In this document: piece by piece, positions 12,449 through 17,197 of the stretch
Position numbering within the stretch: the stretch's first letter is position 1
How the letters are laid out: every line of letters starts with the position of its first letter
Source of the DNA: Ignavibacteria bacterium
Lineage (GTDB): Bacteria > Bacteroidota > Ignavibacteria > Kapaibacteriales > Kapaibacteriaceae
Reading direction: 5' to 3'
Length of the DNA stretch: 45,818 nucleotides
NCBI GenBank assembly: GCA_013204605.1
Contig: JABMNI010000019.1
Coordinates: 1 to 45,818 of the forward strand
The notes under the pieces: model-generated
Seen by the model: only the letters and a program-made list of their open reading frames with translations
Database searches by the model: none
Told to the model about the DNA's origin: nothing
Position numbers and translations under genes: made by a program

Positions 12449-12457
12449 AAAAGTTTG

Positions 12458-12821
12458 TGGAGATGCCGGGAGTCGAACCCGGGTTCGAAGCAGAATCACC
12501 GAAGCTTACCACGTGTGTCTTCGATTTATAGGGTCTCGCCGAGGTGGTCACCAATCGATAGGTCATCCTCAGCCAGCGTCAGTGTTTTCTCGCGGTTAGT
12601 CCTGATGCACAACATCCCGCCAGCCTGTCAGAGAGCGTCACCGGGTAGAAGAACGACAGACAATTCTACGTCCGATGGCATGGTGCCTTAAGTTAGGCAG
12701 CCATGCGATAACCGAAGTTATCGCCAGTTGTTTTTTCGCCAGTTGTATTAACGAGCTCCACCAGCGTAGCTCGACACGCACCTTCGTGATCATCGTGCCC
12801 CGTCGAGACCGGTACATCCCC
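12458..12821 (-). ncRNA. ssrA: Transfer-messenger RNA (tmRNA)
   Basis: A 364-nucleotide tmRNA that rescues stalled ribosomes and tags their products for proteolysis. The 5' end GGGGATG (12821 downward) pairs with CATCTCC at the 3' end, forming the alanine-type acceptor. The 5' region has the conserved GGTCTCGACGGGG-like element and the 3' region the T-arm GGGTTCGACTCCC. CCA is not encoded (the next bases are CAA). The tag frame is 12752-12693: GTT as probable resume codon, giving VNTTGEKTTGDNFGYRMAA then TAA. The MAA ending is like Chlorobi tags as I recall them. The stop lies in the loop of a helix formed by GCATGG/CCATGC and GCCT/AGGC. An 11-base direct repeat (12721-12731 and 12736-12746) duplicates TTG(E/D) inside the tag. 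The choice of the first tag residue is inferred. Confidence 0.95.
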
Positions 12822-13806: not shown

Positions 13807-14511
13807 TCATATATCACCAAAGGCGGTAATCATATCATAGGTCTGTTGGTATTTACGTACGATTTCGAGTATAGCCTCCACTTGCTCATCGATGGTCAAG
13901 TTTGTAGTGTCTATTTCAATTGAACCCTCAGGTTTTATTAGGGGGCTTTCCTCACGCTCCGAATCGTATTTGTCACGCTTATCCAGTGCTTCAATCATTT
14001 CTGATGTTTCTACAGAGTTGCCGCCAGCCGCTAATTCGGCTGCACGACGTTGCGCTCGAACTTCAAGATCAGCAGAAAGAAACATTTTTATCTGCGCGAA
14101 TGGAAATACCACGCTGCCTATATCGCGTCCGTCCATCACAACACCACCATTCAATCCGTACTCTCTCTGAAGCTGCACCATAGCATTGCGGACGTTGTGA
14201 AATGAGCTCACTTCACTAACGTTCGCAGTAACCTGGGCTGATCGAATTTGTTCGGTCACATCAACAGTATCCAACAACACCCGTTGTCCACCAAACGAAG
14301 GTTCAAACCTAATACGAATTTTGCCGGCCAGTTGGCCTAATGCCTCGTTCGTGTACGGGACAAGATTTTGAATGGCTGCCAAAGTTACAACCCTGTACAT
14401 GGCGCCGGAATCAACGTGCTGATATCCAAGTCGTTCAGCAACCTTGCGTGCGGTAGTTGACTTACCAGCTCCCGCTGGACCGTCTAAAGTTATTATGAGA
14501 GGTTGAGCCAC
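13807..14511 (-). CDS. cmk: Cytidylate kinase
   Basis: A 234-residue CMP/dCMP kinase that makes CDP and dCDP from ATP. The P-loop GPAGAGKST is at residues 11-19, followed by YQHVDSGAMYRVVTLAA, typical of Cmk. MDGRDIGSVVFP (near 120) and AQRRAAELAAGG (lid region, near 147) are also family features. The start is GTG at 14511. A cmk-ispH pair is common in bacteria. No strong ribosome site is visible upstream. Confidence 0.95.
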   Translation of the reverse strand: MAQPLIITLDGPAGAGKSTTARKVAERLGYQHVDSGAMYRVVTLAAIQNLVPYTNEALGQLAGKIRIRFEPSFGGQRVLLDTVDVTEQIRSAQVTANVSEVSSFHNVRNAMVQLQREYGLNGGVVMDGRDIGSVVFPFAQIKMFLSADLEVRAQRRAAELAAGGNSVETSEMIEALDKRDKYDSEREESPLIKPEGSIEIDTTNLTIDEQVEAILEIVRKYQQTYDMITAFGDI

Positions 14512-14612
14512 CGTTAGATCGAATTAGTTTCAAATAGAATCACTCAATTTACAACTGTTCTAGGAAACCTATTTATGCTAACGGCGGCCAACCAAACCAA
14601 TTTCAAGACCTC

Positions 14613-15188
14613 TTATTTGTCTTTTTCAATTTTACGAACTATAATGTGGTACATGGCCAGACCAACACCACCCAAGGAAAGTGAACATCCTAGTGTAATG
14701 AAGAACTGCTGGCTCTCCTCTACTTGCGTTGCCCAAGCTATGTACCAGCCTATAAGTAAGCCCAAACCAATCCCGGCAATTAGTAGTCCAAGTCTCAGCG
14801 CCGAGAATTTTTTGGAGGACTCGTCATGCGGCTGCTTTAGTAAACTTGGATCCATCCCCTTTTCTACCATAGCTAGTTTCACCTTTCTTGAAGATACCAC
14901 AAGCTGCACCAGAACAATAGCCATTCCTATAAACAGAACGATGGGAACAAATACTCCCATTACTTGGACCGTATTATCGCCCCCGCCTATACCTTCGCGA
15001 ACTATTCGTAGGTGAGCGTCATTCTCTTGCTTCATCGAATCCAACTTGAATTGATAGTAACCCGAATCTTGCACAACCGCAATTCCCGAATCCAATGTGG
15101 CTGTTTTGGCGGGCGTATCCGCATTTAGAATTCCAATACTTAGCAATAACGCTAGAACTACTAAAACTGTTGTATTAAATAATTGCAT
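14613..15188 (-). CDS. DUF6249-like membrane protein
   Basis: A 191-residue protein with an N-terminal signal peptide (VLVVLALLLSIGILNADT), a short extracytoplasmic segment (about 25-75), then three hydrophobic helices: VQVMGVFVPIVLFIGMAIVL near 80, LGLLIAGIGLGLLIGWYIA near 130, and FFITLGCSLSLGGVGLAMY near 160. MVEKGMDPSLL between helices one and two is the hallmark of DUF6249-type proteins, of unknown function. GGAGAAAG immediately precedes the ATG. It diverges from an ECF sigma factor gene across 140 bases with large palindromes, so the two may be co-regulated. Confidence 0.75.
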   Translation of the reverse strand: MQLFNTTVLVVLALLLSIGILNADTPAKTATLDSGIAVVQDSGYYQFKLDSMKQENDAHLRIVREGIGGGDNTVQVMGVFVPIVLFIGMAIVLVQLVVSSRKVKLAMVEKGMDPSLLKQPHDESSKKFSALRLGLLIAGIGLGLLIGWYIAWATQVEESQQFFITLGCSLSLGGVGLAMYHIIVRKIEKDK

Positions 15189-15242
15189 ACTTTCTCCGAA
15201 TGAAAAATGGAAGTGATTTTGTTGTCATTCCCCAATACGCCC

Positions 15243-15306
15243 GTTTAGACAACACACAGTTTGTTTGGGTTTCATGAAACCCAAACTTTTTTTATGTTGT
15301 CTAAAC
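15243..15306. repeat. Nested inverted repeats between divergent genes
   Basis: Outer arms GTTTAGACAACA (15243-15254) and TGTTGTCTAAAC (15295-15306) are exact reverse complements 12 bases long. Between them is a perfect 24-base palindrome, arms GTTTGGGTTTCA (15263-15274) and TGAAACCCAAAC (15275-15286), followed by seven Ts (15287-15293). It lies 22 bases before the ECF sigma start. It could be an operator, a cruciform site, or a leader attenuator for plus-strand transcription. Confidence 0.85.
15263..15293 (+). terminator. Terminator-like palindrome plus T7 upstream of the ECF sigma gene
   Basis: The perfect inner palindrome followed by TTTTTTT has the form of an intrinsic terminator reading rightwards. 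No plus-strand gene ends upstream, because the neighbour at 14613-15188 points left. If functional it would act as an attenuator in the sigma leader, or block antisense transcription. Confidence 0.45.
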
Positions 15307-15328
15307 TGCTAGACACAGATTAACAAGA

Positions 15329-15925
15329 ATGCAACAAGAAGACCAGCTTTTAATAGATCGACTTAAGAACGGCGACGGAACAGCGTTAACGTTCCTCGTT
15401 GGTAAGTATCGTACAAAAGCTATTTCAACGGCACTTAGAATGGTAAAAGACAAGATGTTAGCCGAGGAAGTTGTTCAAGATTCGTTCAGTAAGGTGTATC
15501 GAAACATAAAATCGTTCAACGGTGAATCAAGTTTTTCAACTTGGTTTTTTCGAATTGTTTACACCACCTCGTTGAATTATTTACAACGGCAACGAAGAAT
15601 GCCATTGATCGAAACCTTCTCTGAAGACGAGACTGGCGAGTTCACAGAACCATCGGTGTTTACAAAACTCACGTCCGAAGAAATAGAAACAGCCATACAA
15701 TCGGAATTGAAATTAATGTCACCATTATATGCCGTCGTTATCGATCTCTTTTACGTTCAAGAATGCACCTACGACGAAATTGTGGCTATTACCGGAATGC
15801 CGTTGGGTACGGTGAAAACAAGACTGAACCGCGGGCGGAGTATTTTGAAAAACGCACTGTTACAGCAACATTCGGAACTTGTGAGTGAACACACCGATAT
15901 GAAATTGCTAGGAAGTATATCATGA
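15329..15925 (+). CDS. ECF-family RNA polymerase sigma factor
   Basis: A 198-residue group IV sigma factor that directs RNA polymerase to stress or envelope promoters. Region 2 spans about 20-90 (AEEVVQDSFSKVYRNIKSF, then STWFFRIVYTTSLNYLQR). Region 4 is at about 130-180 with the helix-turn-helix YDEIVAITGMPLGTVKTRL. There is no region 3. Its stop overlaps the next start by ATGA, so the downstream membrane protein is translationally coupled and may be its regulator. The leader carries the nested palindromes at 15243-15306. Confidence 0.93.
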   Translation: MQQEDQLLIDRLKNGDGTALTFLVGKYRTKAISTALRMVKDKMLAEEVVQDSFSKVYRNIKSFNGESSFSTWFFRIVYTTSLNYLQRQRRMPLIETFSEDETGEFTEPSVFTKLTSEEIETAIQSELKLMSPLYAVVIDLFYVQECTYDEIVAITGMPLGTVKTRLNRGRSILKNALLQQHSELVSEHTDMKLLGSIS

Positions 15926-16398
15926 AACTGACTCTACCTCAACTCTCGGATATTTTGCAAGCTGTGCAACTGGGAAAGCCCCTTACCGAATTCAATGCGC
16001 TATACGGATCCGATCTAGTACGGCAGGTTATTGAGGGTGATCAGGCTCTTAAAAAAGAAATCGTAGCTGCAACAATAGCAGAATTGGAGCTACAGGAAAC
16101 ATCAGAAAAAATTGCCGGATTGGTTTTGCAACGGAGTAAATCAGTGGAAACAAAAATACTTCGACTATCTCCCTGGATACTCTCATTCGGAGCTTTGATC
16201 TTTATCAGTGCCCTCGTGATAATTTTACCAACAGTTTCGTTCGAAGGCGTCGATGTGATTCGAAACGCACCGAACTCACTTTCCTTGGGCAGCATTCTTT
16301 CAGGTCAACAAAACCTAAGCCACCTTGCAATTCTCGTAGCCGTCGTGTTCACCATTTCATTAGCCATGTTAGCACTCGAAAAACGAAGCAACGCATGA
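15922..16398 (+). CDS. Small membrane protein coupled to the ECF sigma factor
   Basis: A 158-residue protein with a soluble N-terminal half (1-80, acidic and helical) and two hydrophobic helices, near 84-103 (ILSFGALIFISALVIILP) and 132-150 (LAILVAVVFTISLAMLAL). I recognise no domain. Position (ATGA overlap with the sigma gene) and topology suggest an anti-sigma-like or accessory role, but there is no HxxxCxxC zinc motif and this is inference. An exact copy of the repeated word lies at 15977. Confidence 0.75.
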   Translation: MKLTLPQLSDILQAVQLGKPLTEFNALYGSDLVRQVIEGDQALKKEIVAATIAELELQETSEKIAGLVLQRSKSVETKILRLSPWILSFGALIFISALVIILPTVSFEGVDVIRNAPNSLSLGSILSGQQNLSHLAILVAVVFTISLAMLALEKRSNA

Positions 16399-16429
16399 GG
16401 GATGTACCCGCCTCCCCTATCTTTGCCAG

Positions 16430-17197
16430 ATGGCATCCTTGATTGAAGTTAAAAATCTGTCGCACACGTATCCGAATGGCTTTACTGCCTTGAAAAACGT
16501 TTCCTTTTCTGTTGAAGAAGGCGAGTTTTTGGTAGTAATTGGCCTTAGTGGTAGTGGAAAGAGCACCCTGTTACGTATTCTTAACAGACTGATTGAACCC
16601 ACATCTGGCAACGTATTTTTTAAGGGGCTAGATGTAACCCGCATTGAGGGTGATGAGTTGCGTACACATCGAGGGCAAATTGGTATGATTTTTCAACACT
16701 TCAATTTGATTGGTCGGCACTCCGTGATAAGTAATGTTTTGTACGGATCACTTGGTCGCACAGGCACGCTGCAAAGTATTAGTGGTGGGTTCAGTAAACC
16801 AGACGTGCAGTTGGCGAAGGAGAGTTTGTTGCGAGTTGGGATTGCCGATAAGGCGGAAAACCGTGCCGACTCACTTTCCGGTGGACAGCAGCAACGCGTA
16901 GCCATAGCACGTGCGTTAATGCAACGTCCACGGATGTTACTAGCCGACGAGCCCGTTGCATCACTCGATCCGGCAACGTCTCATTCCGTAATGAACTATC
17001 TGGAACAGATTAATAAGGAGCAAGGAACTACCGTCATCTGCAATCTGCACTTCCTCTCGTTGGTGCGTAAATACGCTACGCGCGTGGTTGCACTAAAAGC
17101 CGGCGAGCTTGTGTTTGAAGGTAAGCCTGATGCAATTACGGAGGAGTGGTTCAAAGCGATTTATGGTGAAGATGCAATTGAAGTGGAGATCCGATGA
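16430..17197 (+). CDS. phnC: Phosphonate-type ABC transporter ATP-binding protein
   Basis: A 255-residue ABC ATPase of the PhnC type. Walker A GLSGSGKST is near residue 38; the Q-loop region MIFQHFNLIGRHSVISNVLYG near 86 (key residues QHFN, GRHSV) is characteristic of PhnC. The signature is SLSGGQQQRVA near 145, Walker B LLADEPVASLDP near 165, and the H-loop ICNLHFLSL near 202. It powers uptake of phosphonate or a related oxyanion. The stop overlaps the permease start by ATGA. No phnD binding-protein gene and no C-P lyase genes are in the window, so the substrate is uncertain. Confidence 0.9.
   Translation: MASLIEVKNLSHTYPNGFTALKNVSFSVEEGEFLVVIGLSGSGKSTLLRILNRLIEPTSGNVFFKGLDVTRIEGDELRTHRGQIGMIFQHFNLIGRHSVISNVLYGSLGRTGTLQSISGGFSKPDVQLAKESLLRVGIADKAENRADSLSGGQQQRVAIARALMQRPRMLLADEPVASLDPATSHSVMNYLEQINKEQGTTVICNLHFLSLVRKYATRVVALKAGELVFEGKPDAITEEWFKAIYGEDAIEVEIR

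Follow-up and report, generated by a model that had tools for sequence, protein, structure and literature searches.

The window, by which we mean the whole 45,818-nucleotide stretch of Ignavibacteria DNA analysed here, carries a nested palindrome between two divergent genes, one encoding a DUF6249 membrane protein and the other an ECF sigma factor. The outer arms are perfect over 12 bp, with GTTTAGACAACA (15243-15254) the exact reverse complement of TGTTGTCTAAAC (15295-15306), and they enclose a perfect 24-bp palindrome, GTTTGGGTTTCATGAAACCCAAAC (15263-15286, centre at 15274/15275), directly followed by seven T residues (T7, 15287-15293). An earlier note on this DNA had described 12-base arms, a perfect 24-base palindrome and a T7 run between a DUF6249-like gene and an ECF sigma gene; re-reading the sequence finds the structure exactly as stated, and Pfam and NCBIfam profiles above cut-off confirm the identities of both genes. 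A repeat search returns arms and palindrome as a single 64-bp inverted repeat that is 81% complementary with a gapless centre, and the 24-bp palindrome is the longest perfect one in the window (45.8 kb), the runner-up measuring 16 bp. Folded as RNA, the element reaches z = -6.7 on the plus strand and z = -7.5 on the minus strand, with none of 200 shuffles of each strand folding as well. A sigma-70 promoter scan made no prediction at the nested palindrome, and an Rfam scan of the window returned only a tmRNA gene (12455-12821, minus strand; RF00023, 126.7 bits), with no RNA family above its gathering score at the element. The 16-bp runner-up palindrome (12473-12488) sits inside this tmRNA gene.

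The genes on either side of the element are these:

14613-15188, minus strand: DUF6249 membrane-protein gene, presumably the left promoter's target (PF19762, 47.7 bits, cut-off 33)
15329-15925, plus strand: ECF sigma gene, whose product presumably reads both promoters and which would itself be served by the right one (Pfam regions 2 and 4; TIGR02937)
15922-16398, plus strand: gene for a 158-aa protein that overlaps the sigma gene at its end (position and sequence)

The sigma factor matches Pfam regions 2 and 4 above cut-off and scores 88.5 bits with TIGR02937 (cut-off 42.9); its best-scoring models are SigW and RpoE, and it falls below the equivalog cut-offs of both. The 158-aa protein has two hydrophobic stretches in its C-terminal half, as judged by eye, and had no match in Pfam or NCBIfam; its position and sequence make it a possible anti-sigma factor. 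In the window (13807-17197), and again at several family loci such as L003, L007, L012 and L014, the genes stand in the order cytidylate kinase-like, DUF6249, sigma, small membrane protein, ABC ATPase-like, the kinase and ATPase names being a reading of the sequences by eye.

Why should one palindrome be nested in another? Read outward from the centre, each half presents the same series on its own strand, namely TGAAACC, 17 nt and GTCTAA. The inner palindrome reads as two abutting -35 elements and the outer arms as two -10 elements; because the two putative promoters mirror each other, the pair of -35 elements would form the inner palindrome and the pair of -10 elements the outer arms. We propose, with a probability of roughly 0.92, that the nested palindrome consists of two mirror-image ECF-type promoters placed back to back and read by the neighbouring sigma factor. 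The predicted parts, from left to right, are:

15243-15306, no strand assigned: putative divergent back-to-back ECF-type promoter pair (repeat search; both half-sites in 8/8 divergent family genomes)
15237-15240, minus strand: predicted DUF6249 start region, leader of about 50 nt (placed from the -10 position)
15245-15250, minus strand: -10 element GTCTAA of the DUF6249-ward promoter (motif reading)
15267-15274, minus strand: -35 element TGAAACCC of the DUF6249-ward promoter (motif reading)
15275-15282, plus strand: -35 element TGAAACCC of the sigma-ward promoter (motif reading)
15287-15293, plus strand: T7 run in the spacer of the sigma-ward promoter, without counterpart in the sigma-ward spacers of relatives
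15299-15304, plus strand: -10 element GTCTAA of the sigma-ward promoter, 17 nt past TGAAACC (motif reading)
15309-15312, plus strand: predicted start region for the sigma operon, giving a leader of about 18 nt (placed from the -10 position)

The two -10 elements are separate, with 48 bp between them, and 24 nt lie between the sigma-ward -10 element and the sigma ATG. The hallmarks of ECF systems, in the portion of a review drawn on here, are AAC at -35, CGT at -10 and positive autoregulation (PMC8103513). In the window an AAC-bearing -35 and a GTC-bearing -10 stand at fixed spacing on both strands, and one of the two candidate promoters lies directly upstream of its own ECF sigma gene. The element thereby resembles the autoregulated promoters of the RpoE/SigW type, which combine an AAC-containing -35 with a GTC-type -10 upstream of the sigma's own gene, and differs from them in that the sigma factor scores below the SigW and RpoE equivalog cut-offs and that two promoters appear to be fused back to back. 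The SigW promoter likewise begins TGAAAC, on which the literature searched yielded nothing.

The same arrangement can be followed through the window's family. A sigma ortholog is present in 14 of 23 family genomes (E <= 1e-22), PF19762 occurs in exactly those 14, and both genes are absent from the same nine. The pair is divergent in eight genomes (the window, L004, L007, L012, L013, L014, L015 and L017), and all eight carry both half-sites, five with the strict motif and three with a variant pattern; the variant pattern, for L012, L014 and L017, was chosen after viewing these loci, and the strict motif gives 5/8. The variant elements are mirrored on both sides, with a -10 TTC in L012 and L014 and a -35 GCAACC in L017. 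Over 22 family half-sites the information content is 1.6-2.0 bits at TGAAACC and 1.3-2.0 bits at TGTCnAA (0.08 at n); in the spacer it is 0.03-0.76 bits, except at the first base, where it is 1.1. The distance between the -35 cores, from GNAAC to GNAAC, is 2-4 bp in seven of the eight divergent family genomes; the eighth, L004, has 14 bp. For this distance count the half-sites in L012 and L014 were picked by hand among overlapping matches.

The pairing of genes and sites extends across the phylum. A search of named genomes by sigma similarity gave 22 loci, mostly of Bacteroidia and Ignavibacteria; a DUF6249-like gene lies near each of them and is divergent from the sigma gene in 21, and GTAACC mostly replaces GAAACC there. 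Divergent loci chosen by sigma similarity (31 in all, made up of the 21 from named genomes, eight from the family, L016 and L018) carried both sites within a fixed 290-nt region in 25 cases, against 0.06 expected from shuffles; two spacings in this count are odd and probably due to chance, the DUF-ward 15 of L017 and the sigma-ward 14 of L032, which is counted in the 25. Starting from DUF6249, we took the best 30 of 45 matches in 148 genomes, two of them from genomes already sampled. An ECF sigma gene stands beside DUF6249 in 29 of these best 30 loci, 27 of them divergent, and both sites fall within the fixed region in 16 of the 27 (0.08 expected from shuffles). The half-site pattern behind the 31- and 27-locus counts was G[AT]AAC-N14-19-GTC; it was loosened after the family variants appeared.

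A larger comparison drew the searched regions from both genes at 65 loci, 56 divergent and nine co-oriented, with the pattern G[ACT]AAC-N17/18-[GT]TC, each pattern having its own shuffles; L106 and L116 were left out as coming from the genomes of L014 and L007, and L115 because its stretch yielded no sigma. Both candidate promoters are present at 51 of the 56 divergent loci, with 0.13 expected from shuffles; L016, L032 and L114 have one site only, and L018 and L112 have none. The spacer is 18 in 45 of the 56 loci on the sigma-ward side and in 39 on the DUF-ward side, and 17 in 10 and 14, respectively; a spacer of 15 also appears in 13 sigma-ward and 8 DUF-ward cases, some of which stem from GTCGTC ends. 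Over the 51 loci the -35 core distance ranges from 2 to 764 bp, with about half above 70 bp, and short distances are found outside the family too (7 bp in L046, 10 in L100, 12 in L113 and L117); where there were two DUF-ward matches, in L013, L034, L037 and L123, the farther was used, so that L013 enters with 197 although its nearer match gives 4. Because the core distances grade from 764 down to 2 bp, the palindrome is the limit of a continuous series, arising where the two predicted promoters abut. In L101, L107 and L110 the divergent genes are 722-916 bp apart, measured from domain to domain, and each gene has its own ECF-type site.

If the unit is the promoter and not the palindrome, a single half-site is predicted upstream of the first gene wherever the two genes are co-oriented, and this is what the six co-oriented family genomes have (L005, L006 and L008-L011). 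A strict TGAAACCC-N-GTCnAA site lies upstream of DUF6249 in all six, and the scanned region of each has neither a site before sigma nor a mirrored GGGTTTC; L005 has a second, looser DUF-ward match besides its strict site. In the 65-locus set the upstream site is present at seven of the nine co-oriented loci, L028 and L105 being without it. These loci bear on the earlier note's suggestion of a large cruciform operator shared by both divergent genes, of which the outline, a regulatory element common to the two, holds up. If both genes were controlled by a cruciform, or by a dimeric DNA-binding regulator at a palindromic operator, this would account for the perfect dyad symmetry, the position in an intergenic region common to both and the conservation of the arms in relatives. 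However, the lone half in 6/6 co-oriented family genomes is predicted by no dimer site, and the gap between the halves varies over the full 2-764 bp while the spacing between -35 and -10 mostly keeps to 17-18. We therefore consider an operator very improbable, and the element reads as two promoters instead.

The earlier note had also raised a leader attenuator or intrinsic terminator before the sigma gene, made of the hairpin and the T7 run. A terminator scan does flag 15263-15286 with T7 (two sites in the region against 0.6 expected), and the fold is very stable, but the comparison with relatives speaks against it in several ways. The start predicted for the sigma operon is downstream of the element. 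The T7 run is unique to the window among the 22 family half-sites, with no such run in the sigma-ward spacers of the seven other divergent family genomes; the others reach at most T5, which L012 and L014 have in their DUF-ward spacers. The sigma start codons of L007 and L017, assigned by hand, follow the -10 element after just 8 and 6 nt, so that no leader would hold the hairpin, and where the genes are co-oriented a single half-site is all that precedes the DUF6249-sigma pair. Relatives do show compensatory changes in the arms, which the note had proposed looking for, but these track the promoter elements: with the window excluded, and with the boundaries of -35, spacer and -10 set by hand, the two halves agree at 51/56 positions of the -35, 34/91 of the spacer and 56/70 of the -10. 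Such low spacer agreement fits promoters, since base pairing would keep the spacer complementary too. The window's own spacer is palindromic at 8/14 positions. A leader hairpin with a T run conserved in relatives was thus not found, and we regard an attenuator or terminator as highly improbable. The note's further thought of a mobile-element relic, here taken as a small REP- or MITE-like repeat, to which the inverted-repeat ends might point, has a negligible probability, as the check for other copies with a 91-bp query against both strands of the 2.69-Mb genome returned only the self-match, the outer arm with at most one mismatch showed no enrichment in the same genome (15 matches, both arms counted, against 29 for the reversed control), and relatives carry the element at the same locus, in orthologous position.

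For the two mirror-image promoters, the loci also offer a hint as to whether one sigma factor serves both sides. At 50 of 51 loci, L113 being the exception, the two sides have the same second base in the -35 core, and the rare combination C/C, with a -35 of GCAACC on both sides, occurs in L017 and L111. Sigma residue 164, in region 4.2 (window 15818-15820), is T in 17 of 19 loci with GAAAC and A in the other two; with GTAAC it is V in 38 of 40, the rest being one I and one gap, and with GCAAC it is A in both. The base labels were assigned by hand, L113 being labelled A from its sigma-ward site. This tracking of the -35 core base by residue 164 is suggestive of one reader for both sides, and it stays at that strength because three changes of base type suffice on the sigma tree; columns 148 and 160 of the 65-locus alignment are as strongly associated with the base.

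Whether the sigma factor has targets elsewhere appears to depend on the genome. In the window's own genome the strict motif gave six matches against three in the control, with no convincing target beyond the locus; predicted genes contain three of the four remaining matches, and the fourth is separated from the next ORF of at least 90 aa by about 450 bp. A one-mismatch search of that genome gave five matches against ten in the control, among them two further sites, C47 and C60:38669. Across the 23 family genomes TGAAACC-N17/18-GTCnAA matched 30 times and the reversed control 9 times; this spacing suits the window but exceeds that of most relatives' promoters by one base. With N16/17, the family spacing, there were 41 matches and 16 in the control, and the DUF6249/sigma locus itself accounts for 15 of the 41. 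Outside that locus, the N16/17 search found 18 matches against 1 in four genomes of one genus (G007, G010, G020 and G022), singled out after the counts were visible, and 4 against 10 in the other ten sigma-bearing genomes; in the nine family genomes without the sigma gene it found 4 against 5. These counts suggest a wider sigma regulon in the four genomes only, and its absence outside them slightly lowers our confidence in the best explanation. Recurrent neighbours of the motif in the four genomes are genes for peptidase S49 (SppA-like), LolA-like and homocysteine methyltransferase/MTHFR proteins, the loci of this candidate regulon being L072, L073, L083, L086, L088-L091 and L094. Pfam searches with one or two examples per protein place peptidase S49 above and the LolA-like protein below cut-off, and some of the candidate sites lie inside or antisense to another predicted ORF.

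Most likely, then, the sigma factor positively autoregulates itself and also DUF6249, this very sigma being the inferred reader of both promoters. Polymerase carrying it would start rightward about 18 nt before the sigma gene, near 15310 on the plus strand, giving positive autoregulation, and the same sigma would start transcription leftward about 50 nt before the DUF6249 gene, near 15238 on the minus strand. The stem-loop would not be transcribed as such, and hence would be no terminator, and the feedback loop that raises sigma would also make DUF6249. A comparable layout is known from the alphaproteobacterial general stress response, where, according to the part of the review used here, phyR diverges from nepR-ecfG, with promoters of that response driving both units (PMC8103513). 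There as here a gene diverges from an ECF sigma operon, with promoters of one response pointing both ways; the sigma and the phylum are different, and a DUF6249 membrane protein takes the place of PhyR.

Two polymerases would hardly fit on both abutting promoters at once. The sections of Warman et al. 2026 considered here describe E. coli bidirectional promoters that share a -10 element, with starts most commonly 18 bp apart, and that compete at high activity, while separate divergent promoters are unaffected by direct clashes (PMC12825309). Our element is like them in its pseudo-symmetrical DNA, its predicted divergent transcripts and the possibility of polymerase competition, and unlike them in having no shared element, -35 elements that abut and predicted starts about 70 bp apart; lacking one shared -10, it is not a bidirectional promoter in their sense. 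We speculate, though we find it rather doubtful, that in this family the promoters moved together until their -35 elements met and thereby became a self-limiting device, in which polymerases would exclude each other, rising sigma activity would be diverted to DUF6249 and the positive feedback would be capped. Within this scheme we propose DUF6249 as a third component of the sigma/anti-sigma circuit.

The literature searched, subscription journals and supplements aside, held no description of a phylum-wide DUF6249-ECF sigma circuit. Among work on divergent or palindromic ECF promoters and on the classification of Bacteroidetes ECF sigma factors, no title or opening of an abstract described the locus, and what the search gave for DUF6249 concerned bean kinase genes, by title. 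The element itself is of a known kind, in what appears to be an unusually compact arrangement.

Taken as two promoters, a puzzling hairpin becomes a readable regulatory circuit. It ties an uncharacterised family of membrane proteins, DUF6249, to an ECF sigma factor, given that the sigma gene stands beside 29 of the best 30 loci chosen by DUF6249 and that the two genes share the same 14 of 23 family genomes. Moreover, the series from spaced to touching promoters, with its mirrored changes, provides a natural data set for the co-change of sigma factors and their promoters, and the same series may be used for asking whether touching promoters compete.
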